Assembly (NCBI RefSeq): GCF_947495625.1
Contig: NZ_CANLZW010000017.1
Coordinates: 1 to 64,000, forward strand
DNA from: an uncultured Cocleimonas sp.
Lineage (GTDB): Bacteria > Pseudomonadota > Gammaproteobacteria > Thiotrichales > Thiotrichaceae
DNA: 64,000 nucleotides
Reading direction: 5' to 3'
Under the pieces are notes generated by a model, which searched no databases, had not been told where the DNA came from, and saw only the letters and a list, made by a program, of their open reading frames with translations. Each line of letters begins with the position of its first letter. Position 1 is the stretch's first letter. Made by a program: the position numbers and the translations under genes. Positions 2,069 to 61,743 of the stretch are shown here, in pieces.

Positions 2069-2071
2069 TTT

Positions 2072-2141
2072 AAAAACGCATAGATCGGCATAAATTCTAT
2101 TTACGTTTTTAACAAACAAAAAAGATTCAAACAGAGTAAGA
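2072..2141 (+). repeat. Degenerate copy of the 85-bp dispersed repeat
   Basis: The central block GCATAAATTCTATTTACG is identical to the copies at 12.6, 36.1 and 56.7 kb and is followed by the same T-run and CAAACAAAAAAG-type stretch. The left end (AAAAACGCATAG) and the right end (ATTCAAACAGAGTAAG) are diverged, and no G-rich motif is left at its right edge; a canonical motif lies about 60 bp further on. It sits immediately 3' of the bepA-like gene. Confidence 0.65.
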
Positions 2142-2201
2142 CAACAATCTGGTTTTTTGAAGTTGATCCAAAGGGAAGGCAAAGCCGCATAAAAGTGACT
2201 T

Positions 2202-2220
2202 AAAGTAGGGGGGTGACTTA
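2202..2220 (+). repeat. G-rich dispersed motif, canonical copy
   Basis: The core AAAGTAGGGGGGTGAC is perfect and is preceded by AAAAGTGACTT, the A-tract block shared with other copies. It lies in the 282-bp gap between the protease and methyltransferase genes, which otherwise holds only the degenerate long repeat and the promoter region of the downstream gene. Confidence 0.85.
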
Positions 2221-11520: not shown

Positions 11521-11547
11521 TTAGGCACTTTTAAAAAAAGTGCCTAA
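11521..11547. terminator. Terminator-like hairpin after argH and the small ORF
   Basis: TTAGGCACTTTT (11521-11532) and AAAAGTGCCTAA (11536-11547) form a perfect 12-bp stem with a three-base loop. The right arm runs straight into the canonical G-rich motif, whose A-tract and GTGCCT block are the hairpin's right arm. There is no separate T-run after it. Confidence 0.65.
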
Positions 11548-11566
11548 AAGTAGGGGGGTGACTTTT
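11546..11566 (+). repeat. G-rich dispersed motif, canonical copy, first of an inverted pair
   Basis: The perfect core is flanked by AAAAGT and ACTTTT, which are themselves inverted. It is preceded by A7, GTGCCT as in the fullest form of the family. A minus-strand copy follows 96 bp away. Confidence 0.9.
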
Positions 11567-12546: not shown

Positions 12547-12566
12547 AGGTCACCCCCCTACTTTAA
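12547..12566 (-). repeat. G-rich dispersed motif, canonical copy
   Basis: On the minus strand the core TTAAAGTAGGGGGGTGACCT is preceded by a T-rich-free A-tract and CTGCCT. It lies between the convergent SDR and double-thioredoxin genes, 30 bp from a long repeat copy. Confidence 0.85.
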
Positions 12567-12595: not shown

Positions 12596-12678
12596 AAAAA
12601 GTACCTAGCTCTGCATAAATTCTATTTAGGCTTTTACAAAACAAAAACACAATATCATTCAAAAGTATGGGGTGTGTG
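12596..12678 (+). repeat. 85-bp dispersed repeat, second copy
   Basis: AAAAAGTACCT (12596-12606) is followed by a 54-bp insert starting AGCTCTGCATAAATTC and then a degenerate G-rich motif, AAAAGTATGGGGTGTGTG. The insert length is identical to the copies at 36.1 and 56.7 kb. It lies 3' of both convergent genes. Confidence 0.8.
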
Positions 12679-16512: not shown

Positions 16513-16529
16513 ACACCCCCCTACTTTAA
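16513..16529 (-). repeat. G-rich dispersed motif, near-canonical copy
   Basis: On the minus strand it reads CTTAAAGTAGGGGGGTGT, preceded by A5, GTCA. It is in the 402-bp gap before clpB, which also holds the hairpin at 16.37 kb and the heat-shock promoter; I see no further gene there. Confidence 0.8.
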
Positions 16530-19362: not shown

Positions 19363-19382
19363 ATAAGTAGGGGGGTGACTTT
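19363..19382 (+). repeat. G-rich dispersed motif, canonical copy
   Basis: ATAAGTAGGGGGGTGACTTT is preceded by A8, GCCCT, the complete extended form. It stands between the clpB stop and its terminator. Confidence 0.9.
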
Positions 19383-29462: not shown

Positions 29463-30575
29463 ATGAGTATGCTTAAGCGCTGGTTTCAAGGTCTGAAACG
29501 TTCTGAAACAGAGCCCGTTGAGATCGCGCCTGTAGGCACAGGAACGCATATTACTGCCAAAGAACTGATTAGTTTACAGCAACAGGCACATAAACTGGAC
29601 ATGAGTCGTCGAAGTTTCGCGCGATCATCAACCACCGGAACACATCACTCTTCATTTCGCGGTCGTGGAATGGATTATCAAGAATCCAGAATCTATCAGG
29701 CGGGAGATGATATCCGCAATATGGATTGGCGTGTGACTGCGCGTGCTGGTCAGCCACATACAAAGTTGTACCAAGAAGAACGAGAACGTCCAGTAGTGCT
29801 GTTGGTAGATTTTAATCCCGGCATGTTTTTTGGCTCGATCAAATCTTTAAAGTCGGTAGTTGCTGCTAAAGCAGCGACCCTGATTGCCTGGTCTGTCGCT
29901 TCTCGTGGAGATAGAATTGGTGCATTAATCATCAATTCCAGTCATCACGAATTACCGCCAAAAACAGGTAAGCGCGGTGTTTTGCAGCTCATTCGTGAAT
30001 TGGTAATACATAGCGATCCAGTGCAAGGTTTGGCAACAGAGCAAAGTCACACCAGTTTGAATGACGAACTTAAACGCTTAAGGCGAATTGCTCGTCCCGG
30101 TTCGCTGGTTTTTTTGATCAGTGACTTTTACGATATCGATCAGGATACTGCGAATCATATTCAGTTTATTTCGCGCCATAGCGATATTCAGGTGATCCAG
30201 ATTGTAGATCCTTTGGAAATGGTTCCACCGCCACCCGCTCGTTATGTAATGACTAACGGAGAAGACACGGGAGTGTTAAACACTCGAACGAAAAAAGGCA
30301 GAGATGATTTTCGTGAATTTATCAATCAGCACCATCAGGATATTCAGCAGCTCACGCGCAAATATAATATTCCACTGATTCAGCTATCAACTGCGGATGA
30401 TGTGTTACTGGAACTACAGCGCAATTTTGGCAACAGCAAAAGAAGATCGCCGATAAGCACATCTATTAATACACAAAATGATTCGCAGAATAAGACAGCA
30501 GAAAAACCGCCTAAAAGTAGGGGGGTGACCTCCACTAAATCCTCCAACGCATCAATTAGTAATAAGGTTGCGTAA
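29463..30575 (+). CDS. DUF58 domain protein of the MoxR/Bat operon
   Basis: The 370-residue soluble protein has the DUF58 core motif RGRGMDYQESRIYQAGDDIRNMDW-type segment (about residues 62-85) and a degenerate VWA fold (PVVLLVDFNPGMFFG, LVFLISDFYDID). The partner role with MoxR is known in general but not the client. The C-terminal 40 residues are polar and low in complexity (NDSQNKTAEKPPKS and after) and contain a copy of the G-rich motif, read as KSRGVTS; such tails are not part of the conserved domain, so the insert is probably tolerated. It ends directly at the ATG of the next gene. Confidence 0.88.
   Translation: MSMLKRWFQGLKRSETEPVEIAPVGTGTHITAKELISLQQQAHKLDMSRRSFARSSTTGTHHSSFRGRGMDYQESRIYQAGDDIRNMDWRVTARAGQPHTKLYQEERERPVVLLVDFNPGMFFGSIKSLKSVVAAKAATLIAWSVASRGDRIGALIINSSHHELPPKTGKRGVLQLIRELVIHSDPVQGLATEQSHTSLNDELKRLRRIARPGSLVFLISDFYDIDQDTANHIQFISRHSDIQVIQIVDPLEMVPPPPARYVMTNGEDTGVLNTRTKKGRDDFREFINQHHQDIQQLTRKYNIPLIQLSTADDVLLELQRNFGNSKRRSPISTSINTQNDSQNKTAEKPPKSRGVTSTKSSNASISNKVA
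30513..30533 (+). repeat. G-rich dispersed motif inside the DUF58 gene
   Basis: AAAAGTAGGGGGGTGACC is preceded by A5, CCGCCT, the full extended form. It is in sense orientation and falls in the variable polar tail of the protein. Confidence 0.9.
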
Positions 30576-32112: not shown

Positions 32113-34184
32113 TGCTAGAACAGTTCCATTTTACTCAACCACTTTGGCTATTCGCACTGATTCCACTATTGCTTTTATTGCGACTATGTTTTAACGCTGC
32201 CTCGTCCTCAAAGACCTGGGATAAAATTATTGATCCCAATCTGCTGCCGGTTTTACTCCAAGGTAAGCAATCGGGGTCTGGAAGATTTGCCAAATCATTG
32301 CTCGCCCTAGGCTGGATGATTGCTGTCGTTGCACTCGCCGATCCGGTTTGGGAGAAAATACCCCGTCCTATTTTTCAAACCAATGCTGCCAGAGTCATAG
32401 TGCTGGATTTATCAAACTCGATGTTGGTCGATGACCTCAAACCCAATCGTTTAGCTAGAGCAAAATTTAAAATAGAAGACATTCTTTCTATGGATGAAGA
32501 AGGCCAGACAGGGCTGGTACTTTTTGCTGGTGATGCGTTTACAGCGTCGCCACTTACACGTGATGTTGAAACGATTCGTTCTTTGTTAAAAATATTAACG
32601 CCGCAGTTAATGCCAGCACAGGGTAGTCGTGCTGATTTAGGTTTGGTAAAGGCTCACGAACTGTTCAAGCAATCGGGAATCGCAAATGGTCACGTGTTGT
32701 TGATTGCTGATGGTGTAAGTAAAAGCGCGGCTGCGATAGATGCTGTAAAAGATCTTAAAAAGGATGGCCACACAATCTCTGTATTAGGCGTTGGGACTGA
32801 GGCAGGCGGTGAATTGAGATTTAGAAATAATCAGAATGTATCAGTAAAGCTGGAAGCGGATAAACTCGCTGAAATAGCTAAACAAGGTGGCGGCAAGTAC
32901 CATTTGATAAGCACTAGTAGTGCTGATTTGTCTCAAGTCTTAATCGCACATGAAGCAGGCAATGACGCCACAGAAAATACTTTACAAGAACAAGATATTA
33001 ACAATGAGGAATGGTATTCAACCGGTCCGTTAATAATATTGTTATTGCTACCTTTAGCGGCATTAGCCTTTCGACGTGGTTGGTTACTGAATATTGCATT
33101 TGTGGCGATAAGTGGGGGGGTGTTATTACAACCTCAGCCAGTCATGGCTTTCAGTCTGGATGACCTGTGGACGACCTTGTCTCAGAATAAAGAGCAACAG
33201 GCAGATGCTGCGCTTCGAACTCAGCAATATGAAAAAGCAAGCAAACTGAGTCAGGAGCCATTGCGCCGAGGAACGGCCGATTACAAGCAAGGTAAGTTTG
33301 AAGATGCGCTAAAGAGCTTTAAAAAAGCAGAGGGTGCTGATGCGCGTTATAACGAAGGTAATTCACTCGCTAAGTTAAAAAAGTATGAAGAGGCGATTAA
33401 ATCCTACGAACAAGCACTCTCGTTAAATCCAGATATGGAAGATGCAAAGGAAAATAAAAAAGCCATTGAAGACTTATTGAAAAAGCAAAAAGAGCAGAAC
33501 CACTCTGAAAATGAATCTAAGCAGGATTCAAAAGAGAATCAGCAAGAAAATTCTGACAGCGATTCTAAGTCTAAAGATAAAAAAGATCAGCAGAACTCAG
33601 AGGGTAAAGAAGGCGAGAACAAAGGTGAGCAAGGCGAAGAATCATCGGACAAAAGCCAGAGTGGTGAAGATCAACAGGAAAGCAAACAAAAGTCGGATAA
33701 ACCGAGCGAAGATGGCAAACAAAAAGGGAATGAAAAAAATCAGTTCTCAGATGCCAATAAAGCGTTAGACGAAAAACAAGATAAAGAGGAACAAACTCCA
33801 GATTCGGAAAGTAAGCAACAAGACAATGCTGACAATGAGAAAAAATCCGAGCAAGAAGGCAATCAATCAGGCGAGAAAAAAGATGAGCAAATGAGCGCTG
33901 ATCAGGACGCTAAAAAAGATGGAGAGCAATCCACTCCAGAGGAAGCTGAATCACTTGCAGAACAAGAAAAGGCTCAAAAAGAACTCGGTGAAGAAGCTAA
34001 GCAAGCTGTTTTAAAACAAACAGGTGAGAAAAAAGCGGATGACCTCACAGAAGAAGAAAAAATGGCGGCGGAGCAATGGTTAAGGCGTATCCCCGATGAT
34101 CCCGGTGGATTGTTAAGAAGAAAGTTTAGAAGTCAGTATCAACAGCGTAGAGGAAACGCCGATAATTCGGAGCAACCTTGGTAA
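32112..34184 (+). CDS. VWA plus TPR protein, BatB-BatC fusion
   Basis: The 690-residue protein joins a BatB-like N-terminal half (two transmembrane helices, VWA with MIDAS in VLDLSNSMLVDD, another pair of helices near residues 305-345) to a BatC-like half with TPR motifs (YNEGNSLAKLKKYEEAIKSY and the repeat after it). A long hydrophilic, very charged segment of about 190 residues (rich in K, E, D, Q, S) follows, then a conserved C-terminal end LRRIPDDPGGLLRRKFRSQY. The second helix pair is encoded across a copy of the G-rich motif (ISGGVLLQP). It overlaps both neighbours by single bases. Confidence 0.88.
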   Translation: MLEQFHFTQPLWLFALIPLLLLLRLCFNAASSSKTWDKIIDPNLLPVLLQGKQSGSGRFAKSLLALGWMIAVVALADPVWEKIPRPIFQTNAARVIVLDLSNSMLVDDLKPNRLARAKFKIEDILSMDEEGQTGLVLFAGDAFTASPLTRDVETIRSLLKILTPQLMPAQGSRADLGLVKAHELFKQSGIANGHVLLIADGVSKSAAAIDAVKDLKKDGHTISVLGVGTEAGGELRFRNNQNVSVKLEADKLAEIAKQGGGKYHLISTSSADLSQVLIAHEAGNDATENTLQEQDINNEEWYSTGPLIILLLLPLAALAFRRGWLLNIAFVAISGGVLLQPQPVMAFSLDDLWTTLSQNKEQQADAALRTQQYEKASKLSQEPLRRGTADYKQGKFEDALKSFKKAEGADARYNEGNSLAKLKKYEEAIKSYEQALSLNPDMEDAKENKKAIEDLLKKQKEQNHSENESKQDSKENQQENSDSDSKSKDKKDQQNSEGKEGENKGEQGEESSDKSQSGEDQQESKQKSDKPSEDGKQKGNEKNQFSDANKALDEKQDKEEQTPDSESKQQDNADNEKKSEQEGNQSGEKKDEQMSADQDAKKDGEQSTPEEAESLAEQEKAQKELGEEAKQAVLKQTGEKKADDLTEEEKMAAEQWLRRIPDDPGGLLRRKFRSQYQQRRGNADNSEQPW
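33108..33128 (+). repeat. G-rich dispersed motif inside the BatB/BatC gene
   Basis: ATAAGTGGGGGGGTGTTATT, seven G, in sense orientation, encoding ISGGVLL in a hydrophobic segment. It lacks the upstream A-tract, so it is one of the weaker matches. Confidence 0.6.
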
Positions 34185-36010
34185 TGAACTTGGCCATGAA
34201 ATTTAGAATATTCATAAAATCACTTTTACTAGCTTTAGTGGTGGTAGTTTTAATTCCTGCTCATGCAGCGGTAAAAGCCACTTTGAATCAGTCTACAGTA
34301 TTTGAGGGTGATCCGATCACCCTGATTATTCAGAGTGACCAGAATGATAATGCTCAGCCTGATTTAAGCTCGCTTCAACAAGATTTTGAGGTGCAAGGCA
34401 GCAGTACCAGTTCTCAGATCAATATTCTCAATGGCACTCGTAGTTTCAAGAAAACCTGGACCATTGAGTTGATGCCAAAGTCTGTGGGTAAGCTGGAGAT
34501 TCCAGAGATTACCGTTGGCAATGAAAAAACCAATTCCCTGACTGTCACCATTGCTAATCTACCACCAGAAGTTGCGGCAGAAACCAGTAAACATATTTTT
34601 GTAGAATCTTCAGTTGATCTGGATAATGAAGAGACCTATGTCCAACAGCAGATTCCCTACACGGTAAAGCTTTATTATGATTCTGCGATGCAGACCGGTG
34701 AAGTCTTTTCGCCGCAAATCAAAAATGCCAATATCAGGGCATTAGGCAATGATAAAAAATATCAGGTGGTGCGTGCGGGTAAGAAGTATGTCGTCGTAGA
34801 AAAGCGCTTTGTAATATCGCCAGAAAAAAGTGGCGTGTTGCATATTCCACCAACCATTGTTAGAGGCCGCATCGCGCTCTCAGGCGGAGACTCTCCAAAC
34901 CTCAGAAAACGCATGGATGAGACTGATATGCTCAATCAGTTTTTTGGTGGGCAAAACAAGAATCCATTCTTTAATACGCCATTTGATGAGTTTTTTGGGC
35001 GTCGTTCAATAGGCCCGAGTCGTCCGTTTAGTATTAGCGGCGAAGCAATGGATGTAAACGTATTACCCGTTCCGGAAAGCTTTAAAGGTGCCGCGTGGTT
35101 ACCTGCTGAAGAATTGATCATGACTGATAGCTGGACCGAAGCTCCTCCTGAACTAAAAGTAGGCGAACCCGTTACCAGAAAATTAATACTGCAAGCGAAA
35201 GGTCTTGCAAGTTCGCAGATACCGGATATCAATATCTCAAAGCCTGAGGGGATGAAGGTTTATACCGATCAAGCTAAATCTGAAACGCCCAACGACGGTA
35301 GTACGATTTATGGTATTCGCCAAATTGATATCAATTACATTCCCAGCAAAGCAGGCAAAGTGATTATTCCGGAGATTAATGTCGATTGGTGGGATGTGAA
35401 TAACAAAGAGCAGAAGACGTTTACTCTGCCAGAATGGAATTTAAACGTCACTGGAAATCCGATAGCTGCGATTGAAAATAATAACCCACTACCAGCTGTA
35501 ACTAAAAACACCGATACAACGAATAGCATTTCTGATCAGATCGAAACGATTAAGATGCCGATGTCCTGGGGCTGGAAAACGCTGGTATTATTATTCCTTG
35601 GCATTGGGGTAATACTGTTTGTCATGTTTGGTTTTAAACAGCGTAGAAAAAAGACTAAAAATTCAGCCGTGAAGCCTCAAAAAGCAGTTCAATTAGTCGA
35701 TATGGAAGCGTTAAAAAATGCGCTTGCAGAAGCTTGCAAATCGAATGATAAACATATGGCTGCAAGGACATTGCTTAAGTTAGTTAGGGCGCAATGGAAT
35801 GATCAATTAATACAGAACCTGGGTATTCTTGCGCAAGAATTAGGTAATGGAAGTGAAGTGATAGAAGAGTTAGAAAAAAGCTTGTATTCGGCGGATTCGA
35901 GCGACTGGGATGGAAATGAGTTGGAAAAATTAGTTACTCAGGGATTCTATAGAAAGTCTGTGCCTTTACCTCAAAAACAAAATGGTTTGGAGCCTTTGTA
36001 TCCTGTTTAG
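34184..36010 (+). CDS. BatD-family protein (oxygen-tolerance, Bat operon)
   Basis: The 608-residue exported protein has a signal peptide ending in PAHA, then beta-rich Ig-like domains (starting VKATLNQSTVFEGDPITLII) and a C-terminal transmembrane helix (about residues 462-482) followed by a cytoplasmic tail rich in basic residues and helices. The BatD name comes from the Bacteroides aerotolerance operon; its action is unknown. The start is the ATG overlapping the preceding stop (TAATG). It is the last gene of the operon, followed by the dispersed long repeat. Confidence 0.88.
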   Translation: MNLAMKFRIFIKSLLLALVVVVLIPAHAAVKATLNQSTVFEGDPITLIIQSDQNDNAQPDLSSLQQDFEVQGSSTSSQINILNGTRSFKKTWTIELMPKSVGKLEIPEITVGNEKTNSLTVTIANLPPEVAAETSKHIFVESSVDLDNEETYVQQQIPYTVKLYYDSAMQTGEVFSPQIKNANIRALGNDKKYQVVRAGKKYVVVEKRFVISPEKSGVLHIPPTIVRGRIALSGGDSPNLRKRMDETDMLNQFFGGQNKNPFFNTPFDEFFGRRSIGPSRPFSISGEAMDVNVLPVPESFKGAAWLPAEELIMTDSWTEAPPELKVGEPVTRKLILQAKGLASSQIPDINISKPEGMKVYTDQAKSETPNDGSTIYGIRQIDINYIPSKAGKVIIPEINVDWWDVNNKEQKTFTLPEWNLNVTGNPIAAIENNNPLPAVTKNTDTTNSISDQIETIKMPMSWGWKTLVLLFLGIGVILFVMFGFKQRRKKTKNSAVKPQKAVQLVDMEALKNALAEACKSNDKHMAARTLLKLVRAQWNDQLIQNLGILAQELGNGSEVIEELEKSLYSADSSDWDGNELEKLVTQGFYRKSVPLPQKQNGLEPLYPV

Positions 36011-36049
36011 TTTTTTGTTTAATCTAATTCAATTAGGTGATGTTTTAAT

Positions 36050-36136
36050 AAAAAGTGCCTAGCTCTGCATAAATTCTATTTACGTTTTTTAAAAACAAAA
36101 ACGGAATATCATTTAAAAGTAGGGGGGTGACCTTTT
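36050..36136 (+). repeat. 85-bp dispersed repeat, best preserved copy
   Basis: AAAAAGTGCCT (36050-36060), a 54-bp insert (36061-36114) beginning AGCTCTGCATAAATTC and containing CGTTTTT and AAAAACG inverted arms, then a canonical G-rich motif AAAAGTAGGGGGGTGACC. It lies 3' of batD, between convergent genes. Confidence 0.85.
36115..36136 (+). repeat. G-rich dispersed motif as right end of a long repeat
   Basis: AAAAGTAGGGGGGTGACCTT is a perfect core forming the right end of the 85-bp repeat, separated from its usual upstream AAAAAGTGCCT block by 54 bp. Confidence 0.9.
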
Positions 36137-36155
36137 AGATATAACGTTTTACATT

Positions 36156-36851
36156 TTAAAAGATTAAAGCTCTTTGCAATGTATAAAGGCCCATCGCGAT
36201 AACTAATAAGCCCGCACCTATTCTAACGGCGGGTAGTTTTACCCATCTGGATAATCGAGCGGCAATAACACCCATCGCGAGTAAATTAGGTAATGTGCCT
36301 AAGCCAAAAAACAACATGATTAAAGCGCCCTCTAATGCGCTACCTGCTGATAATGTCCAGATCAGTGCCGTGTACACTAAGCCACAGGGTAACCATCCCC
36401 AGATAAAGCCTAACGGCACTGCTTGCCTAAAATTGGTGACAGGGATAAACCGTTTACCAATCGGTTGCAGATGCTTCCAGAATTTTTGGCCGATGATTTC
36501 AATTTTGGCGAGGCCGCTCCAGAATCCTGCCAGATATAAACCTAAAGCCACCATAAACACAGCGGCGATGGTTGCGAGTACTTTTTGAGCTGTTTGTAAG
36601 CCGGTTAATTCAATAAGAGATGAGCCGATAAAAGCAACGATTGCCCCGGCAAGGGTGTAACTGGTGATGCGGCCAAAGTTGTAGCCGAGTGAAATGATAA
36701 ATGCAGATTTTTGTGAGGCGTTATTATTGCCTACATTGCCTAAGCTGAGGGCTCCGACAATACCCCCACACATGCCAAAACAGTGAACGCCACCCAGCAA
36801 CCCAGTAATAAAAGCAACCAGGTACTGGGAGTGGTTTAGCCATTCTGGCAT
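36156..36851 (-). CDS. COG2836-type membrane protein (TauE/SafE-like, HCxGMCGG motif)
   Basis: The 231-residue protein has about six hydrophobic helices and the signature GGVHCFGMCGG near the N-terminus, with the histidine and cysteines that suggest metal contact. Members are often named sulfite exporter TauE/SafE or found with cytochrome cbb3 assembly (ccoS/fixI) genes, where copper handling is suspected. Neither ccoN nor fixI is adjacent, so the role is open. hspQ starts 12 bp upstream on the same strand. Confidence 0.82.
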   Translation of the reverse strand: MPEWLNHSQYLVAFITGLLGGVHCFGMCGGIVGALSLGNVGNNNASQKSAFIISLGYNFGRITSYTLAGAIVAFIGSSLIELTGLQTAQKVLATIAAVFMVALGLYLAGFWSGLAKIEIIGQKFWKHLQPIGKRFIPVTNFRQAVPLGFIWGWLPCGLVYTALIWTLSAGSALEGALIMLFFGLGTLPNLLAMGVIAARLSRWVKLPAVRIGAGLLVIAMGLYTLQRALIF

Positions 36852-41247: not shown

Positions 41248-44200
41248 TCAATTAGCTATTTTGAAGTTTGATGTAGCTTCCGGAACTCCATTTGTAAATG
41301 ATATTTTGCTTAGTGGTGTCACTGGAATTTTATCCCCAGGTAGAAGAATGCCGACCAGATTTAACGGGTCCGCCGAAGAAATCGTAATCGATTGATCTGT
41401 TTTATTCTTTTTGCGGGATTTTCGCAGTACATTGAGCGCTTCGGGTAAAGCGAACTGCTCGCCACTGACACCGTTTACAAAACGTCCGCCACGAATTTCA
41501 CCGCGCGCTTCCATACGCCAGTAAACGCGTAATAAATCACGCCATTGCGGTAGGTTATTTTCGCGTTCTAACACTTTGCGGAAGATGACGCCGTAACGAT
41601 TCAGTAGCGTCCATGCGATGAATTCTATTTCATCCTGATTCAGTGAGGCTTGAGTTGTTTCTGTGTTGTTGATTTGTCTGATCAAACTCCAGCGGCCGGC
41701 ATTATCGAAAGGTGACACTTTGGCGGTGCTTCTTCCACGCCGTGCGTGAAACTTAGGACGTTTGGCTGAAGGCGTAATCAATGCGCGCAAACCTACGTAG
41801 GCGTCTGACGTGACTAATCCCCAGTTGACTAATTCACCCAAAGCATCTTCGACTTGAGTGCGCAAAATACCTGTGTGTTGAACAATGTCGAAGAAGAATA
41901 ACGCACCATGATTGCTTAACGCTTCAGCGACTTTTTCTGCATAGGGGCTGAGTTTGTATTCGTCGGGTTTTCCTGCGAGTTGCTTCCATTGGGGAAGATG
42001 GCTTCGTTGCAATAAGGCAATGGGAGTATTCTTCACGGGTGATTTCTTCTTGGTAAGTTTTTTACTTGAAGAGGCGACATTCAAGCGTAGCCAGTTAATT
42101 CTTCCAGAAATACACAGGCTATCTAACATATCGATACTGAAATTTTTGATGCGCGCTGGCAATACGCCTTCTTGCCACGCAGCCGCGGAAAGCGAAATAC
42201 CCTCCAGCTGTTCGAGTACATGAGCAAGGGATTCAGTACCTTCGCCTTTATCCACCAAGCCCTGCCATTCAAATAAGAATGACATATAGTTGGCCAGCGA
42301 AACGGGTTCAATTTCACGGCGTAGTCGAGAAATAGTGTAGCGATGGATGCGTGCGAGCAGTCTGCGCTCACACCATTCAACTTCGCTATTTTGTCGGGTG
42401 AAGTGACCTTGAATAACGAAGCCTTCCTGTTCAAGCGCGAGTAAAACCTGATTGGTTTTATTTGCATCGATTCCTAATGGTTGACCTAGTTGCTCGGCAG
42501 TGACAGGACCGAGCCCTTCCAGCCTACTGCGTAAAATTTCCAGTAATGGGTTCTCTGTAGAAAAAGTGCCTGTAAGTGGGGGGGTGACATTTTGTTTGTT
42601 ATTAGTAGATTCGAGGCTAGTTATTTCGCGGTTTGATTCAGGAATAACCGCCAGAAACTCGTGTAACCGTTCTGCAGCAACCCATAATATATCTGCATTA
42701 CTATCAGAGTGGATTATCTTAATTTTATGCGCACGACTTTCATTGGCGAGCTCATCAAACATGTGTTGCCAGCCACAATTGCTAATCACATCGACAGCGC
42801 TATTCGATAATACTTTGCCTTGCTCAGTTTCGAGAATAAAACCCAATACCATCAGTGCATCGTGTAATTCATCGGCAGTGCGCACAATCGGCCAGGCTTC
42901 TTCGCGTACTTTCTCTATCGCTGCATTATCTAATTTGCGTAATGAGGCGGCATCCTCAGTGCTCATAAATGGCTGAGATTTAATCGCCATGGTGCGGCGT
43001 TCTTCAGCCTCGCCATCGTCGAGGAATGCGTAAGGTTTTGCGGTAATCACTTCTTGAGAAAGCGGTGATGGTGAAGTTAAATCACAACAGGTGATATTGA
43101 TTTTGCCCGTTTCGATCTTCTGTAAGACTTCGATTAAACCATCGATATCCATGGTTTCATTCAGGCAGTCTTTGATGGTTTGTTCTACCAAAGGATGATC
43201 AGGAATTTCGCGTTCGCCAGCGATATTCTCCAGACAGGCAATCTGATCGGGAAACACCACGGCCATTAAATCTTCGGCATCAGAGCGCTGAAAGTAGGGG
43301 GGTGACCTACGGCCAAAACGATTGCGCAAAACGGCCAGTGAAATCGTCGCATTCCAGCGCCAGCGTGTCGGGAATACAGGAGCATCTAACATCGCCTGAA
43401 TTAACACTTCACGCACCGTTTTCGAATTTAGGTAGCGGGCGACTTCCTCCATGGGAAAACTATGGGTGGATGACAATGACAGCACAATACTGTCTTCCAG
43501 CGCGGCTGCTTGTAATTCGAAATTAAACTTACGGCAAAAGCGTTTTCGTAAAGCCAGACCCCACGCTTTGTTGATGCGTGATCCAAAAGTGGAGTGAATC
43601 ACGAAATGCATATCGCCCACTTCATCAAAGAAGCGTTCGAAAAGAACATTGCTTTGTGTCGGCAGTAAACCTAACGCCGCTTTGGCAGCAGCCAGATAAG
43701 CAACCAATTGTTCGGCAGCACTTCGTGATAAGTGATATTCAGCACGCAAAAAAGCAATTGCGCATTCTTCGCTTTCGTCGAGTAATTCATCGACCGTTTC
43801 ACGTAGGGCGGATACGGTTCCTGATAATTCATCGGTACGCCCCAATGCATCACCCACCCAGAAAGGAATGTTAGGTGGTTGACCATCCGCGTCTTCGACA
43901 AACACTTTGCCGATTTCTGATTTTAATATTCGATAAGAGCGATTACCCAATTGGAAAATATCTCCGGGCAGGCTTTCAAAGGCAAAATCTTCGCCCACGC
44001 TTCCAATACGATAACCCTCAGGTTGCAATACCACATCGCAATCGAATTGATCGGGAATTGCACCGCCATTGGTTAGCGAAATAATGCGCGCGCTTTTGCG
44101 GGGACGAGCAAGACGGTTGATACCATCATAATGTATGTAGGCACCGCGTCTTCCGCGTCGTGTAGAAAAACCATCCGCTAGCATCTTTATAATGTCATCG

Positions 44201-52457: not shown

Positions 52458-53504
52458 ATGGATATTACACAGTTACTTGCTTTCTCGGTAAAAAACAAAG
52501 CATCAGATTTACATATTTCAGCAGGGGAACCACCGATTATTCGTGTCGATGGCGATATGCGTCGAGTCAATATGCCTGAGCTAGAGCACAAAGAAGTGCA
52601 TAGTATGGTGTACGACATCATGAATGATAAACAGCGTAAAGCTTACGAGGAAAATTGGGAAACTGACTTCTCGTTTGAAATTCCCGGTGTGGCTCGTTTT
52701 CGTGTAAACGCATTTAATCAGAATCGTGGTGCAGCAGCGGTATTTCGTACCATCCCCAGTAAAGTACTTTCGTTAGAAGACCTAGATGCTCCGGCAATAT
52801 TCAAGAAGATTTCTGATAAGCCTCGTGGTTTAGTTCTGGTAACAGGTCCTACGGGTTCTGGTAAATCCACAACCTTGGCAGCGATGATTGATTATAAGAA
52901 TGAAACCGATCATGGGCATATTTTAACGATTGAAGATCCGATAGAATTTGTACACCAGAGTAAGAAAAGTTTGGTAAACCAGCGTGAAGTTCATCGTGAT
53001 ACGCAAAGTTTTGATGCATCACTTAGATCTGCACTTCGTGAAGATCCAGATACGATTCTGGTTGGTGAGATGCGTGACCTTGAAACCATTCGTTTGGCGC
53101 TAACAGCGGCAGAAACAGGTCACTTGGTATTCGGAACACTACATACAACCAGTGCGCCTAAAACCATCGACCGTATTGTTGATGTTTTCCCAGCGGCAGA
53201 AAAGGACATGGTGAGATCAATGATTTCTTCATCGTTGCAGGCAATCATTTCTCAAACACTACTAAAACGTGTTCAGGGTGGTCGAGTAGCAGCTCATGAG
53301 ATACTGATTGGTACAAACGCTATTCGTAGCATGATTAAAGAAAACAAGCTGGCACAAATGCGTTCTGCGCTTCAAACAGGTGCAGCAGACGGTATGCAGA
53401 CCTTGGATCAAAGTCTACAGAAGCTAATGACCTTGGGTCATATCTCTCGTGATGTTGCTATGAAGAAGGCAGATAATCCACAAGCGATTATGGACAGAAG
53501 CTAA
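52458..53504 (+). CDS. pilT: Type IV pilus retraction ATPase PilT
   Basis: The 348-residue hexameric ATPase drives pilus retraction and is needed for twitching and natural DNA uptake. Features are the N-terminal PAS-like domain (ASDLHISAGEPPIIRVDGD), Walker A GPTGSGKST near residues 130-138, Asp box (LTIEDPIEF), Walker B DTILVGEMRD and His box TGHLVFGTLHTTSA. Length and sequence are typical of PilT. It is the first of three PilT/PilU-type genes in a row and divergent from yggS. Confidence 0.95.
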   Translation: MDITQLLAFSVKNKASDLHISAGEPPIIRVDGDMRRVNMPELEHKEVHSMVYDIMNDKQRKAYEENWETDFSFEIPGVARFRVNAFNQNRGAAAVFRTIPSKVLSLEDLDAPAIFKKISDKPRGLVLVTGPTGSGKSTTLAAMIDYKNETDHGHILTIEDPIEFVHQSKKSLVNQREVHRDTQSFDASLRSALREDPDTILVGEMRDLETIRLALTAAETGHLVFGTLHTTSAPKTIDRIVDVFPAAEKDMVRSMISSSLQAIISQTLLKRVQGGRVAAHEILIGTNAIRSMIKENKLAQMRSALQTGAADGMQTLDQSLQKLMTLGHISRDVAMKKADNPQAIMDRS

Positions 53505-53505
53505 T

Positions 53506-53538
53506 TTATTAGCAAAGTACATTATTAGCAAAGTGCAT
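53506..53538 (+). repeat. Two-copy 16-bp tandem repeat after pilT
   Basis: ATTAGCAAAGTACATT is followed by ATTAGCAAAGTGCATC, period 16, starting immediately after the pilT stop. A third partial unit (CAAAGTACTGCAT) follows. Probably slippage in the pilT-pilU gap. Confidence 0.6.
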
Positions 53539-53620
53539 CAAAGTACTGCATAAGAATCGCTTGTTGACACAAAAGCAATCACATTAAGAATAATAACGAT
53601 TATAAAAGTGAAGAATAAAA

Positions 53621-54784
53621 ATGGATAAAGAAAGCGCGATAAGTTACGTCCACCAGTTGTTAGATTCAACCTTGGAAAAGAATGCATCTGACTTGTTTAT
53701 TACTTCGATGGCTGCTCCATCAATTAAAGTTGATGGTCAAATGAAGCCTCTGTCGAACCAGAAGCTGAATGCGGAGCAGGCAGGGTTTATCGTTCGTTCG
53801 ATCTTAAATGATAAGCAAATGAAAGAATTTGAAGAGCACATGGAGTGTAACTTCGCAATTAGTTTGCCAGGAAAAGCCCGTTTTCGTGTAAATACTTTTA
53901 CACAACGTGGTGCGCCAGGTATGGTTTTACGACATATTCCTGATTATATTCCTTCGTTTAAAGAGTTAGTGTTACCTCCCGTTTTGAAAGATATTGCGAT
54001 GACAAAACGTGGTTTGGTTATCATGGTAGGTGCGACAGGTTCTGGTAAATCTACCAGTTTGGCTTCAATGATCGATTACAGAAATAAAAACTCAATGGGG
54101 CACATTGTTACGATTGAAGACCCGATTGAATTCACCCATGATCATCATCAGTGTTTAGTGACACAACGTGAAGTGGGGGTTGATACAGATAGCTATGAAA
54201 TAGCGATGAAAAACACCTTAAGACAAGCGCCAGACGTTATTTTGCTTGGTGAGGTTCGAGATAGAGAAACTATGGAGTATGCGATTGCTTATGCAGAAAC
54301 GGGTCATTTATGTTTGACCACGCTACATGCGAACAGTACCAACCAGGCACTGGATAGAATTATCAACTTCTTCCCAGAAGAACGTCGTGATCAATTGCTA
54401 ATGGATTTATCTTTAAACTTGAAAGGTGTAGTTTCGCAACGCTTAGTTCGTAAAATAAAAGATGATGGTCGTTTACCAGCAGTAGAAGTTATGTTGAATA
54501 CACCGATGATGGCTGACTTGATTTACAAAGGGGATATCCCAGCAATAAAAGAGTTAATTTCTAAATCTAACCAATTGGGTATGTGCACATTTGATCAGGC
54601 AATTTTCCGCCTTATTGATGCGGGTATGATTTCGGTGAAAGAAGGTTTACGCAATGCCGATTCGGTTAATGATTTGCGTCTGCAATTGAAGTTGAATAGC
54701 CGTCAAGCTCAAAAGGGTGACTTCTTTAAAGGTACTGAGTCACTTGCGATGGAAACACTTGATGATTACACACCTAAGCTTTAA
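53621..54784 (+). CDS. pilU: Type IV pilus retraction ATPase PilU
   Basis: The 387-residue ATPase assists PilT in retraction. The N-terminal ASDLFITSMAAPSIKVDGQ, Walker A GATGSGKST, Walker B DVILLGEVRD and the His box TGHLCLTTLHANST match the PilU subfamily, and the C-terminal tail (about 30 residues longer than PilT) is normal for PilU. It follows pilT after 116 bp that contain a small tandem repeat. The next gene encodes a third related ATPase. Confidence 0.92.
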   Translation: MDKESAISYVHQLLDSTLEKNASDLFITSMAAPSIKVDGQMKPLSNQKLNAEQAGFIVRSILNDKQMKEFEEHMECNFAISLPGKARFRVNTFTQRGAPGMVLRHIPDYIPSFKELVLPPVLKDIAMTKRGLVIMVGATGSGKSTSLASMIDYRNKNSMGHIVTIEDPIEFTHDHHQCLVTQREVGVDTDSYEIAMKNTLRQAPDVILLGEVRDRETMEYAIAYAETGHLCLTTLHANSTNQALDRIINFFPEERRDQLLMDLSLNLKGVVSQRLVRKIKDDGRLPAVEVMLNTPMMADLIYKGDIPAIKELISKSNQLGMCTFDQAIFRLIDAGMISVKEGLRNADSVNDLRLQLKLNSRQAQKGDFFKGTESLAMETLDDYTPKL

Positions 54785-54849
54785 GTATTAACGTTAGTAA
54801 AAACAAATAAAAATAATAAATTGATTGATCTTTCAAGGCTGAAAACATT

Positions 54850-55980
54850 ATGAAACTAATCCCTTATTTGGAGCTTATGGTAAAAAGAGAAGCTTCTGAC
54901 TTGTACTTAACTACAGGTGCTTTCGCTTCTATAAAGGTCATGGGTAGCCTTGAGAGCATCTCAAAAAACAAATTAATGCCAGGTGTTATTGCAGCATTTG
55001 CCAAAGAGTTGTTATCCGATAAAGAGTGGGCCGTTTTTCATCGTACCAAAGAGATGAATAAAGGTGTTTCGGTCAGAGATCTTGGTCGTTTCCGAGTTAA
55101 TGTCTACTTTCAGCGTGGCGAAGTATCGATGGTTATTCGTTATGTAAGATCAGATATTTTGGCTCCTGAAGCCTTGGGATTGCCGGAAGTATTAAAAGAT
55201 TTGGTGATGAAAAAAGAAGGTTTATTCTTGTTCGTAGGTTCTACCGGTGCGGGTAAATCAACGTCGATGTCATCATTGATTCAATACAGGAATCAACGTG
55301 CTTCGGGGCATATTCTAACGATTGAAGATCCTATCGAATTTACTTACCGTCATGATAAATCCATTATCGGGCAGCGCGAAGTAGGATTTGATACGCACTC
55401 TTACGAAAATGCAATGCGAGAAGCCATGCGTGAAGCACCTGATGTCATCATGGTAGGTGAGATTAGAAGTACTGCAACTGTAGAAGCAGCAATGGGTTTT
55501 GCCGATACAGGTCACCTCGTTATCAGTACACTGCATGCAACAAACTCGATTCAGGCATTGGAACGTTTGATTTACTTACTGCCTGCTGATCAAAAGGACC
55601 GTGTGTTAATGGATCTATCTTTGAACCTGAATGCGATCATTGCGCAGCGTCTTATTCCAAGTCTGGATGGTCGTTATGCGCTTGCTACTGAAGTGTTGGT
55701 GAATTCACCGTTTTCAGCAGAAGTTATTCGAAAAGGACGTATGCAAGAGCTTAAAGATATCATCGAGAAAGGTGGCGCGGATGGTATGCACACCTTCGAC
55801 CAGTCACTTGCTGAGTTATTTAAAGCGGGTAAAATCTCTCGTGAAAATGCACTTGAACATGCGAGTTCTAAAAACAACCTTGAATGGATGCTTAGCTTTG
55901 ACGGTAAAGCAGAAGAACAGAATGAGCGTTCTATCAATAGTAAACCTGTATTATCTGGCGCCTTACCAGAGATTTCTTAA
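54850..55980 (+). CDS. Additional PilT/PilU-family ATPase
   Basis: This is a third 376-residue ATPase of the same family in tandem. Walker A is GSTGAGKST, the Asp box is LTIEDPIEF, Walker B is DVIMVGEIRS where the family usually has an aspartate after Arg (MRD), and the His box is TGHLVISTLHATNS. It is more PilU-like than PilT-like by its long C-terminal tail (KAEEQNERSIN and after). It could be a duplicated PilU that modulates PilT hexamers, or be devoted to a special pilus function such as DNA uptake. Catalytic residues for ATP binding and hydrolysis look intact except the changed Walker B neighbour. Confidence 0.85.
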   Translation: MKLIPYLELMVKREASDLYLTTGAFASIKVMGSLESISKNKLMPGVIAAFAKELLSDKEWAVFHRTKEMNKGVSVRDLGRFRVNVYFQRGEVSMVIRYVRSDILAPEALGLPEVLKDLVMKKEGLFLFVGSTGAGKSTSMSSLIQYRNQRASGHILTIEDPIEFTYRHDKSIIGQREVGFDTHSYENAMREAMREAPDVIMVGEIRSTATVEAAMGFADTGHLVISTLHATNSIQALERLIYLLPADQKDRVLMDLSLNLNAIIAQRLIPSLDGRYALATEVLVNSPFSAEVIRKGRMQELKDIIEKGGADGMHTFDQSLAELFKAGKISRENALEHASSKNNLEWMLSFDGKAEEQNERSINSKPVLSGALPEIS

Positions 55981-56186: not shown

Positions 56187-56732
56187 TTGAATATCAATGA
56201 CTTGCTTTTTGATAAAAATAATACAGATGCCATTTCTGAATTTGCCAATAATTTTGGTGTTAATGAATCTGAAGCTAAAGATGCAATCTCATCTTTAGCA
56301 GACTCTCTTTCCCGTGGTCTTGGAGCTAATGCACAAGAGATGAAAGGCCTTGATAGCTTGATGGAGGCTCTAGAGAAAGGAAACCATTCCCGTTATCTCG
56401 ATGATCCCTCTTTGTTAGGTAAGAAAGAGACCACTCAAGAAGGTAATGATATACTCGGTCATATTTTTGGTAATAAAGATGTTAGTCGTCATGTGGCGAA
56501 ACGTTCATCAAAAGAAACAGGTCTAGGAAGTAGTTTATTGAAGAAGATGTTACCTGTAGTCGCAACAATGGTAATGGCTTCTTTAGGCAAGAAGATGCTG
56601 GGTGGTAGTAAAACTGCGCCATCCAGGCAGGAATCTTCGGGCTTTCTGACCAATTTACTCGATGCCGATAAAGACGGTTCTATGATAGATGATGTATTAG
56701 GTATGGCGTTTAAAGCATTTATGGCACGTTAA
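56187..56732 (+). CDS. DUF937 family protein
   Basis: The 181-residue protein matches the DUF937/YidB family: an N-terminal helical part (ISEFANNFGVNESEAKDAIS), the central GNDILGHIFGNKDVSRHVA and the C-terminal SLLKKMLPVVATMVMASLGK and LDADKDGSMIDDVLGMAF. The TTG start at 56187 has an AGGAG site 6 bases upstream. The family function is unknown; the last segment with DADKDGS resembles a calcium-loop-like motif. It is monocistronic with the long repeat at its 3' end. Confidence 0.82.
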   Translation: MNINDLLFDKNNTDAISEFANNFGVNESEAKDAISSLADSLSRGLGANAQEMKGLDSLMEALEKGNHSRYLDDPSLLGKKETTQEGNDILGHIFGNKDVSRHVAKRSSKETGLGSSLLKKMLPVVATMVMASLGKKMLGGSKTAPSRQESSGFLTNLLDADKDGSMIDDVLGMAFKAFMAR

Positions 56733-56816
56733 AAAAGTACCTAGCTCTGCATAAATTCTATTTACGTTTTCAAATAACAAAAACGTAATAACATTCATAA
56801 GTGGGGAGGTGGTTTT
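56732..56816 (+). repeat. 85-bp dispersed repeat, fourth copy
   Basis: It starts A5, GTACCT, overlapping the stop of the DUF937 gene by one base, then has a 54-bp insert (56743-56796) with AGCTCTGCATAAATTC and perfect ACGTTTT and AAAACGT arms, and ends in a degenerate motif, ATAAGTGGGGAGGTGGTTTT. The insert length is identical to the copies at 12.6 and 36.1 kb. Confidence 0.85.
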
Positions 56817-56845: not shown

Positions 56846-56866
56846 AAAGCCACCCCCCTACTTTGG
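56846..56866 (-). repeat. G-rich dispersed motif facing the long repeat
   Basis: On the minus strand it reads CCAAAGTAGGGGGGTGGCTTT, preceded by A8, CAGCCC. With the degenerate copy at 56797 it makes an inverted pair 29 bp apart between convergent DUF937 and hemW genes; the C-run and GGGGCT may also form a hairpin ahead of a T8 run. Confidence 0.85.
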
Positions 56867-58992: not shown

Positions 58993-61743
58993 CTAATTTT
59001 TGATTTTTAACTCAACACGACGATTGTCTGCTCGTCCTGTTTCAGTTTTATTGTCAGCAATAGGATCTTGTTCACCATAACCATTAGAAGTTAAACGATT
59101 GGCATCGACTCCTTGTTTGATTAGTTCGATCATAACTGCGTTGGCTCTGCGCTTTGATAGTTTTTTATTAACATAAGCTAAACCTTGGTTGTCGGTGAAG
59201 CCTGCTATTTCAATATTAAAGTTTGGATTTTGTTTGATGGTTGAAGCTGCTGCATTAATTATTGGCAGTGAGTTGATGGTGAGTTTTGCTGAACCTGTAG
59301 CAAAATTGACGCCTTTAAGGGTGATATTTTCCGTCTTTGTACAACCAAATCCATTAACTTCTGAACCTGCTTCAGATGCTGGGCAAAGGTCATTGGCATC
59401 TGCTATGCCGTCTTTATCTGCGTCAGCGATATTTGGGCATCCTTCAATATTAACTTCCTGTCCAGCAGGTGAGCTTGGGCACTGATCTTTACTATCGATA
59501 ACACCATCACCATCACCATCAGCAGTCGCTTCTTTAAGTTTTGTAGTTAGCTCATCTTCTTTTGAGCTAAGGTCCTTATATGCATTTTTAAGTGCATCGA
59601 GTTCGCTAGTCGTTACCATTAAAGCTTTTATTTTATTGGCTTGTGAAGATGTGGTGCTTTCTAAAGTCGCCAGTTTGCCTGCAAGAGTACTTTTCTCTAC
59701 TTCAGATTTAGCAAATTTATCTTGAATGTTTTCTAAAGCAGCTTTACAAGCATTTGCTGATTCTTGTGTGGAAGCTTCTAATGATGAAAGAGTTTCAATT
59801 TTAGATTTCAGTATTGCATTCTCATCATTACGTTGTTTGTAAGCACTTTTTAAAGCAGTTAACTCTTTAGAGGCCTGATTTAAGACGGTTATCTTTCTAG
59901 CTTGTTCACCAGCATTATTACTAGCTAGATCAAGTTGACCTTTTAAGGTTTTACTTGCGTCTAGAGCTTCTTTTAGTTTTTTCTTCAATCCCTCAGTTGC
60001 AAGGTTATCTTGCTTCGCTTTCAACGAAATAGCATTTTGACGAGTGTCGAAAAGGGTTTGAATGCTTGATTTCTCTTTATCTAGATTTGTTAGCTGCTGT
60101 TTGAGTAATGTGTTTTCATCATTACGTGCTTTATAGGCACTTTTAAGTGCGTCTAGTTCCTTTGTGCTTTGACTTAATACAGTAATTTTTCTAGTTTGGT
60201 CACTAGAATTATTGTTTGCAATCTCAAGTTGCCCTTGTAGGCTTTTATTGGCATCTTCAGCTTCTTTAAGCTTCTGTTTTAAGCCTTCAATAATTTCACT
60301 ATCTTGTGTTGCTTTCAAATTTACAGCAGTTTGATTGGAGTCGAATAGAGATTGGATATTAGACTTTTCTTTATCGAGATTTGTGAGTTGTTGCTTGAGT
60401 AAAACATTCTCATCATTTCTTTCTTTGTAAACACTTTTTAATGCTGTTAATTCAGCTGTTGATTGACTAAGAACATTGAGCTTTCTTAAAATCCCCGCAG
60501 ACTCGTTTTGCGCTTGTGTGAGCTGAGTTGCCAATGTTTTGTTTTCATTATCAAGTTTAGCTAAGTCTTCTTTGAGCTTAGTATTTTCTTCAAGGCGTTT
60601 TTCATACTCACTTTTTAATGACTTAAGCTCAGTGTCAGTTTGCTCAAGAGCCGTTAATTTAATAACCTGATTGCTTGTCTCTTTTGTAAGAGTAGTGTGC
60701 TCAGTTTGTAAAGCTTTGTATTGATTACTCAGTTCTTCAAACTGAGTTTTTAAACTACTAGCTTCATCATTGCGCTCTTTATAAGCACTTTTCAAAGCTG
60801 CGAGTTCGACGTCTGATTGACCTAACGCAGTTAATTTTCTTGCTTGGTTACTTGTTTTATTTTCTAGGGCGGCAAGTTTAGCTTGAAGAGATTTATATTC
60901 ACTGTTGAGCTCTTCAAGCTGTGCCTTCAACGTACTTGTTTCATCGTTTCGTTCGTTATAAGTGTTTTTTAAAGCCGCTAGTTCTTCCTCATTCTGTTTT
61001 AAAGAGGTGATCATGAGCGCTTGTGATCCTGCCTTTGTCTCCATCGATGACAAGCGATTTTTTAAATCAATATTTGTTAGATCTAGGTCAGCTAAATTTT
61101 GCTTTAGAGTTTCTAACTCTTGTTTTTCTTTTTCTAACTGTGAATTTGTTTTAGCCTGAGAAGTTTTGAAAACACCTAATTGTTGTTCTAAATCCGTGAT
61201 TTTTTCTTTTAGAGAAATATTTTCATTGGTGCCGTTACTTATTATTTTTTGGCTGTTAGAAATCTGGTTCTGAGTATCTTCAAGGGCCTGTCTCAATTCT
61301 GCAATTTTTTGCTTAGATGCGGATGAGGCTAAATCATATCTTTGTTGTAAAGCTTGAAGTTTTTCATCACTTTCACAATTAGCCTGAAGTTGAGGTACTA
61401 AAGTTTGCGGTTGATTCGTTGGTGCAGTATTAAAAAATGGGCTAGGAGGTGGCAATAAACCAAGAGGCTCGTTTTGAGTAGGATAAGGAATAATCTCTGG
61501 CATAGGTATTGGTTGAGAAAAATCCATATTGTTCCCAAAATTACCCATAGGATAGTTCATTGGGTGTGTGTTCATTGGAGACACAGGAACTGGTACGCAA
61601 TCTCCCCACGCTACAAGCGCTTGATTGCCTCCCCAAATTGGCACAGGTATTTCATAATTTGGTGGGAAAACTTCAGCATGACTTTGTTGAATTGTTAAGC
61701 TAAGAAAGCTACCTATTAACAATGTTTTGATTGTTGCGTGCAT
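58993..61743 (-). CDS. Secreted coiled-coil protein with TSP3 repeats and OmpA domain
   Basis: The 916-residue protein has a signal peptide (ending SHA), a proline-rich region of about 90 residues, and a long coiled coil from about 120 to 720. In that coil a cassette LKSAYKERNDE (variants LKNTYNERNDE, LKSEYEKRLEE, LKNAYKDLSSK) occurs seven times, at about 261, 320, 378, 438, 538, 638 and 721, spaced 58-60 residues first and 100 later. Then come calcium-type TSP3 motifs (DGDGDGVIDSKDQCP, DADKDGIADANDLCP) and a C-terminal OmpA peptidoglycan-binding domain (IEIAGFTDNQG, RANAVMIELIKQGV, RADNRRVELKI). It probably reaches across the periplasm from outer membrane or pole. Start ATG has GGAGG upstream. 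Confidence 0.88.
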   Translation of the reverse strand: MHATIKTLLIGSFLSLTIQQSHAEVFPPNYEIPVPIWGGNQALVAWGDCVPVPVSPMNTHPMNYPMGNFGNNMDFSQPIPMPEIIPYPTQNEPLGLLPPPSPFFNTAPTNQPQTLVPQLQANCESDEKLQALQQRYDLASSASKQKIAELRQALEDTQNQISNSQKIISNGTNENISLKEKITDLEQQLGVFKTSQAKTNSQLEKEKQELETLKQNLADLDLTNIDLKNRLSSMETKAGSQALMITSLKQNEEELAALKNTYNERNDETSTLKAQLEELNSEYKSLQAKLAALENKTSNQARKLTALGQSDVELAALKSAYKERNDEASSLKTQFEELSNQYKALQTEHTTLTKETSNQVIKLTALEQTDTELKSLKSEYEKRLEENTKLKEDLAKLDNENKTLATQLTQAQNESAGILRKLNVLSQSTAELTALKSVYKERNDENVLLKQQLTNLDKEKSNIQSLFDSNQTAVNLKATQDSEIIEGLKQKLKEAEDANKSLQGQLEIANNNSSDQTRKITVLSQSTKELDALKSAYKARNDENTLLKQQLTNLDKEKSSIQTLFDTRQNAISLKAKQDNLATEGLKKKLKEALDASKTLKGQLDLASNNAGEQARKITVLNQASKELTALKSAYKQRNDENAILKSKIETLSSLEASTQESANACKAALENIQDKFAKSEVEKSTLAGKLATLESTTSSQANKIKALMVTTSELDALKNAYKDLSSKEDELTTKLKEATADGDGDGVIDSKDQCPSSPAGQEVNIEGCPNIADADKDGIADANDLCPASEAGSEVNGFGCTKTENITLKGVNFATGSAKLTINSLPIINAAASTIKQNPNFNIEIAGFTDNQGLAYVNKKLSKRRANAVMIELIKQGVDANRLTSNGYGEQDPIADNKTETGRADNRRVELKIKN

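Follow-up and report, generated by a model that had tools for sequence, protein, structure and literature searches.

A unit of about 54 nt splits a motif of about 26 bp in the genome of an uncultured Cocleimonas, and at orthologous sites it is often present in one species where a related species has the motif unsplit. We think that the unit is a very small non-autonomous mobile element of the PATE-like kind that targets the motif and probably breaks it, and we give this reading a probability of roughly 60%. The unit would insert, with no target duplication, directly 5' of (n)AAGTRGGGGGGTG, and insertion would move the A-tract of the motif away from its core, probably inactivating that copy. 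Movement may take place as single-stranded DNA with an HUH/Y1-type enzyme supplied in trans, a step to which we give slightly less than even odds. The element would be a variant of a known PATE-like kind, and the function of the motif is the more interesting question.

Genomes and sequence sets

The window is the whole 64,000-nt stretch of DNA that was analysed, positions 1 to 64,000 of contig C17. It belongs to a 4.60 Mb genome in 89 contigs from an uncultured Cocleimonas, which we call the own genome (G000), and our detailed scans of this genome cover 635 kb. The closest named relative is Cocleimonas flava (G003), whose genome is listed as 100% complete, with parts of it reading N. For example, the DsbD_2 family protein at 36156-36851 is 94% identical to a protein of C. 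flava DSM 24830, and its next-best matches are in Thiotrichaceae MAGs at 54-72% identity. The core of the motif was searched for in 57 genomes: the own genome, 11 congeners (G001-G011), 24 from other genera of the family and 21 others of the class. Three of the five motif-rich congeners are 80-89% complete.

The motif

The layout of the motif is A5-nn-SCCT-nn-core. The profile of 160 own copies shows A5 at -13..-9; S-C-C-T predominates in the spacer at -6..-3, and after two loose positions come the core and a T-rich stretch. A genome-wide count of motifs and units, suggested by the sequence-only reading of the window, gave 913 copies of the core AAGTRGGGGGGTG in the own genome (1 for the reversed control) and about 114 unit left ends. 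The motif-rich congeners have 879 (C. flava), 651 (G004), 620 (G011), 289 (G008) and 237 (G007) cores, and the motif-poor ones (G001, G002, G005, G006, G009 and G010) have 0-4 each, as do the genomes of other genera of the family; the others of the class have 0-1. The window holds 14 matches to AAAAGTAGGGGGG at ≤1 mismatch, with 0.04 expected. These window and genome counts exclude a chance origin of the motif copies. Near-copies are scarce: the 635 kb contain 161 exact cores, 16 with one mismatch and 26 with two, and one shuffle of the same sequence gave 0, 1 and 11. Most cores lie outside ORFs of at least 100 aa (53/59 on C2, 38/44 on part of C1 and 10/17 in the window), in stretches that are 86-89% ORF.

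The form of the core varies among genomes. In G007 it is followed by TAC. A second form, AAGTGGGGAGGTG, is frequent on C. flava C1, and the stretches of the own genome have only a few copies of a GGGGAGG or GGGAGG type. Congener locus L062 has, beside the DsbD_2 gene, two opposed copies in a related but distinct form, AAAAGTGGCAAAA-GGTNGGGGGTGTACTTT. In the motif-poor congeners we saw no comparable repeated 10-mer in 15-32 kb from each of five, which is too little sequence to exclude another form of the motif there. No Rfam family reached its gathering score in the window (the best match for 36000-36200 had E 0.93), and a known RNA family was dropped as an identity for the repeat.

Cores are well kept between the two species. 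Of 67 syntenic own motifs, 60 could be mapped to C. flava and 51 of those are exact there; in the other direction 56 of 64 could be mapped and 51 are exact, so that these counts omit 7 own and 8 C. flava motifs that were unmappable. The 60 own copies come from the loci listed first. At the 51 conserved own sites the A-tract, which was not a selection criterion, is 0.90-1.00 identical in C. flava. Most flanking positions are 0.42-0.75 identical, with +14 to +24 at 0.65-0.84; these identities are ungapped and hence lowered by indels. Besides the 13-nt core, conservation extends over the A-tract at -13..-9. In the block of the window common to C. flava, 7 of 7 cores are present; two of them have one letter changed or a G added. 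The copies in coding regions (24163, 31049 and 33110) align with ordinary homologous coding sequence. From this conservation, with 51 exact copies among the 60 and an A-tract identity of 90-100%, we take it as shown that selection maintains the motif in our Cocleimonas.

Strand bias

The G-rich strand of the core follows GC skew in the own genome and in C. flava. Forward and reverse cores number 7 and 52 on own contig C2 (negative skew), 32 and 3 on C3 (positive), 17 and 6 on C17 (positive) and 18 and 26 on C1 (weakly negative). On C. flava C1, single cores in four segments from the left are 13/36, 15/25, 31/39 and 40/22, and the skew minimum near 950 kb, to the left of the fourth segment, is taken for the presumed origin. 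Twenty sampled stretches of other C. flava contigs gave 7/2 in the first two, which have positive skew, and 7/60 in the other 18. Composition outside ORFs accounts for part of the bias: it predicts forward/reverse ratios of 0.32 (C2), 0.54 (C1), 1.38 (C17) and 2.80 (C3), and we observed 0.13, 0.69, 2.8 and 10.7, so that the bias on C1 is weaker than composition predicts. The bias is weak beside the skew minimum. Core orientation on C2 does not track gene direction.

The unit

The left end of the unit is 16 nt long and reads AGCTCTGCATAARTTC, or CGCAAAGCATAARTTC where units are stacked; after it come a hairpin and then CATTC (class A) or CACTT (class B). The unit sits just 5' of the core. The left ends counted above for the own genome are at ≤2 mismatches, with 0 in the control. 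At ≤1 mismatch there are 13 in C. flava, 20 in G004, 12 in G008, 3 in G011 and 1 in G009, the last with no core beside it; there are none in the other six congeners, including motif-rich G007 with its 237 cores.

The sequence-only reading had described an insert of exactly 54 bp at three places in the window. Its start, AGCTCTGCATAAATTC, is indeed present at 12607, 36061 and 56743, with the motif halves 54 bp apart in all three. This length turned out not to be fixed: 87 distinct copies, measured from the start of the left end up to AAGT, span 31-175 nt, with 66 at 53-58 nt, 17 at 108-175 nt and 4 at 31-49 nt (own and related genomes, left end ≤3 and core ≤2 mismatches, among the copies listed first). 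In stacked units the second unit sits between the CATTC of the first and the core. The second unit would enter between the first unit and the core, and the junction is therefore set by the core side. Some long units (L002, L057, L191 and window 2082-2202) contain a REP-like block with GAGACAACAGCATTG and TTTAATGCTGACCCGAAGGGAAGGC.

The arms CGTTTT/AAAACG proposed for the insert are present, and the nine proposed pairs of the hairpin are paired in 86.4% of cells over 24 copies picked by the analyst for diversity (73.8% in shuffles; 0 of 500 shuffles reach this). Slid partners are paired in only 41-56%. Double changes (23 cells vs 6.3 shuffled) and the covariation score (0.318 vs 0.112) also exceed all 500 shuffles. 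The two covariation measures least inflated by relatedness are not above shuffles: 5 pairs have a double change vs 3.6 (67/500), and there are 10 further pair types vs 9.7 (263/500). Selection on the hairpin is thus likely but not proven. In single-copy folding the energy z of the three window copies is -0.58, -0.21 and -2.24, unremarkable for two of three.

The sites in the window are as follows.

36050..36060 (+): A-tract half of split motif, AAAAAGTGCCT; orthologous C. flava spot unsplit
36061..36114 (+): 54-bp unit, class A, left end AGCTCTGCATAAATTC, right end CATTT
36080..36106 (+): unit hairpin, arms ~36080-36088 and 36098-36106; pair counts over 24 copies, weak in single-sequence folding
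36117..36129 (+): core AAGTAGGGGGGTG, intact
12551..12563 (-): core of second, opposed motif adjoining the split one
12596..12606 (+): A-tract half AAAAAGTACCT
12607..12660 (+): 54-bp unit, class A; orthologous C. flava site possibly a decayed long form
12661..12674 (+): damaged core AAAAGTATGGGGTG
56732..56742 (+): A-tract half AAAAAGTACCT
56743..56796 (+): 54-bp unit, class A; unit at the C. flava site too
56797..56811 (+): damaged core ATAAGTGGGGAGGTG; C. flava core damaged too
56851..56863 (-): core of opposed motif, downstream
2071..2215 (+): degenerate long form, half TAAAAACGCAT, unit from 2082, core AAGTAGGGGGGTG at 2203-2215; C. flava unsplit
11535..11560 (+): unsplit motif AAAAAGTGCCTAAAAGTAGGGGGGTG
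42561..42586 (+): unsplit motif AAAAAGTGCCTGTAAGTGGGGGGGTG
16514..16526 (-): core kept in C. flava despite long indels in neighbouring DNA
33110..33122 (+): core within coding region, exact in C. flava
19365..19377 (+): unsplit core, exact in C. flava
30515..30527 (+): unsplit core; C. flava form is AAGTGGGGGGGTG

The claim that the insert separates two halves of the usual form is right for 36050 only. The other two sites, 12596 and 56732, have AAAAAGTACCT on the left and, on the right, the degenerate halves AAAAGTATGGGG and ATAAGTGGGGAGG. Unsplit motifs are present as described, at 11535-11560 and 42561-42586, the latter reading AAAAAGTGCCTGTAAGTGGGGGGG, and the degenerate copy reported at 2072 has a left end with two mismatches at 2082.

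Filled and empty sites

Most units are preceded by the A-tract half with AAAA in place: 47 of 50 own copies (5.5 in control windows), 8/11 in C. flava, 6/9 in G004, 3/8 in G008 and 1/3 in G011. Among the 50 own units, 39 have a core at ≤2 mismatches, 28 at short and 10 at long distance.

We could assess 12 orthologous sites between the own genome and C. flava. Eight have the unit only in the own genome (C1:7115, C1:44021, C1:101045, C1:106914, C1:110912, C17:2082, C17:36061 and C17:67425), two only in C. flava (G3->own 13128 and 97646) and two in both species (C1:109093 and C17:56743). So at 10 of 12 sites one species has the unit and the other has the unsplit motif, which supports the proposal of an insertion at a fixed point in the motif. 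Flanks are near-identical at three of the sites (own C1:101045, own C1:106914 and the C. flava case G3->own 97646) and match poorly at C1:7115 and C1:110912. Own units C1:74807 and C1:79691 were unmapped, and 12607 was left out as a block border cuts its flank. Chance left-end rows were dropped by eye (C1:114177, C1:136361, C17 45724 and its counterpart, and C. flava 157630 and 56465).

By eye, there is no target duplication at the filled and empty junctions of the 12 sites and there are no terminal inverted repeats at the unit ends. The right junction is not exact to the letter, because filled sites and empty ones differ in the 1-2 nt that precede AAGT. PATEs also have extra bases at element-free sites, which their description attributes to annotation of the target as belonging to the element (PMC3119063). 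These comparisons support a unit that appears to insert at a fixed point of the motif. That the direction is insertion rather than loss is something we infer. The sequence-only reading had named two observations that together would refute its proposal, an insert that varies in length genome-wide and homologous loci in relatives with neither motif nor insert. The first was observed, since length does vary; the second was not, as C. flava carries the motif at the corresponding place.

Damage to cores is more frequent behind units (7/20) than in unsplit motifs (7/129; Fisher p 0.0005) in the 635 kb of the own genome. C. flava shows no difference (1/4 vs 45/247). Cores of either class were counted only with an intact AAGT, and decay is therefore understated for each. 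At 56743, split in both species, the core is damaged in both. In G004 and G008 an exact core follows most units (7 of 9 and 5 of 8, respectively), which does not point to decay there. We conclude that insertion of the unit probably breaks or inactivates the motif copy.

Mobilization

The own genome has 4 matches to Y1_Tnp (PF01797), and every motif-poor congener (six in all) has 1-4. There are none in motif-rich C. flava, G004, G007, G008 and G011, four of which have units, although three of the five genomes are 80-89% complete and C. flava is partly N. On this result, with those limits of completeness, we rejected a motif that is a REP made by a RAYT, and the link to a RAYT/TnpA-like gene that the sequence-only reading wanted checked is not shown. 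C. flava has its 13 unit left ends despite lacking a Y1_Tnp match. Two of the own matches are RAYT-like genes (L157 1357-1893 on the minus strand and L161 1432-1986 on the plus strand), and both are flanked by ordinary-REP-like hairpins that begin with GTAGG, unlike the unit. In the stretches examined we found no gene for moving the unit and no Y1 element with the ends of the unit.

An IS200-like element has 41 partial matches in the own genome, many at contig ends as if collapsed by the assembly (loci L163/L194 on G000:C26, L047 and L195-L215). It always starts after TTCTATT and ends at ATTTTTACTT, at some sites without a unit; its left end reads ACACATAAGAACCACG from the junction after TTCTATT and its right end reads GGATTTTTACTT up to the junction. 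Among the junctions listed, 6 of 12 left and 6 of 12 right ones are in units, which contain 15 of the 220 TTCTATT sites in 635 kb. The IS200-like element uses units as landing sites and is a later arrival, not their parent.

Alternative explanations

The long form could be ancestral, with about 54 bp lost from most copies by precise excision or hairpin-mediated deletion. Loss would give both states at the same loci, including the 36050 site that is unsplit in C. flava, and IS200/IS605-type elements do excise precisely. But it needs many independent and nearly precise deletions, cores outnumber unit left ends about eightfold, G007 has many cores and no left end at ≤1 mismatch, and stacked units are simpler as successive insertions. 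We consider loss unlikely, and less likely than insertion. Less probable again is that motif and unit are a single REP- or MITE-like mobile repeat whose motif has no function of its own. The high copy number, the intergenic preference, the strand bias and the patchy occurrence in the genus would all fit, as would the low share of G008 units with an A-tract half. Such a repeat does not explain why cores are kept at orthologous sites while flanks diverge, why near-copies are so few or why copies in coding regions align with ordinary homologous coding sequence.

Close pairs of cores suggest another possibility, that the motif, split or not, acts as a transcription terminator or RNA element and the unit as a regulatory stem-loop. 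Within 200 bp, in all stretches scanned, there are 21 head-to-head pairs, 16 of them 40-44 bp apart, which could form G/C stems, and 5 tail-to-tail pairs. With 26 close pairs of either kind in total, cores are mostly single; their orientation on C2 does not track genes, and the window has no Rfam family at gathering score. We think this very improbable. Hardly credible is a unit that arose by fusion of the two ends of the own genome's IS200-like element. In favour, at L163/L194 there is an internally deleted copy of that element between unit ends and motif halves; against it, the element also occurs without units, its ends differ from those of the unit, and its junctions at TTCTATT and ATTTTTACTT contradict the idea.

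Comparison with known systems

The preferred reading, a small PATE-like element inserted into the motif, can be compared with several systems, as the accessible parts of the cited papers describe them. Like the PATEs of Haloquadratum, the unit has no transposase, no terminal inverted repeats and no target duplication, has a palindrome near its ends, is present at orthologous sites in a species-specific way and is a target of other elements (PMC3119063). Unlike PATEs it is only ~54 nt, has one hairpin and one ~26-bp genome-wide target motif, and the stretches examined yielded no IS605-type parent that shares its ends (PMC3119063). REPs mobilized by TnpA-REP are also short intergenic hairpin DNA in high copy number (PMC8266576). 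The cleavage site of TnpA-REP is a CT beside the hairpin; the left junction of the unit is usually ..CCT or ..CTT (PMC8266576). REPs have GTAG 5' of the hairpin, whereas here GTAG/GTRG is 3' of it, as part of the core, and unlike REP/RAYT systems there are motif-rich congeners without a RAYT-like Y1_Tnp match, some of these genomes being incomplete (PMC8266576). ISPpu9, ISPpu10 and ISPa11 share the strong preference for one repeated intergenic sequence, but they are full insertion sequences with a palindromic REP target, and here a tiny unit goes to a non-palindromic conserved motif (PMC1525189).

The motif itself is like USS/DUS in its hundreds of copies, its sharp core with A/T-tracts, its head-to-head pairs, its mostly intergenic location (in Neisseria), its lineage-specific forms and its conservation at homologous sites (PMC7811141, PMC2397512). 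It differs in its replication-linked strand bias and its restriction to part of one genus (PMC7811141, PMC2397512). Uptake sequences in many copies are known from the naturally competent Pasteurellaceae and Neisseriaceae (PMC7811141), and in Neisseria paired ones act as terminators (PMC2397512). As in AIMS, the G-rich strand of the motif is on the G-excess strand and the bias weakens around the presumed origin, although AIMS are 8-mers and the motif spans about 26 positions and is mostly intergenic (PMC5993296). Overall the motif looks like an uptake sequence, with a strand bias like that of AIMS.

Function of the motif

We know of no description of replication-strand bias for uptake sequences, and KOPS are strand-polar sequences of the AIMS type. 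Between a self-recognition (uptake-type) sequence, a chromosome-polarity mark and something else, we lean to the first, though at well below even odds. ComEC-type PF03772 was dropped as a discriminator of motif-rich genomes: it is in 11 of the 12 genomes of the genus, including motif-poor ones. A wider scenario is a three-level nest, in which part of Cocleimonas would have evolved independent uptake-type self-recognition sequences with replication-strand bias, parasitised by a specialised ~54-nt hairpin element that switches copies off one by one and is itself a landing site for the IS200-like element. We regard this whole scenario as doubtful, a little more so than the self-recognition role by itself.

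We found no uptake-sequence report for Thiotrichales in the open-licence literature and, in its accessible parts, no description of the motif or the unit, with the letters AAGTAGGGGGG and Cocleimonas papers included. If our reading is true, a kept motif of ~900 copies in Thiotrichaceae would be a further independent case of uptake sequences or a new kind of polarity mark. The unit would exemplify very small mobile DNA with an unusually exact target. It would also be a natural mutagen of the motif, and the split and unsplit alleles in two species would be a natural experiment on motif function.

Other observations

A viral collection has 13 stretches with the unit left end and 4 with the motif, counts from which we conclude nothing about a phage origin. 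Two repeats of other kinds are present in the window. Three consecutive ORFs at 52458-55980 have a 125-nt stretch in common (70-73% alike) and are probably tandem duplicates, and at 59806-60840 there are diverged tandem repeats of ~294 bp inside the ORF at 58993-61743 (-).
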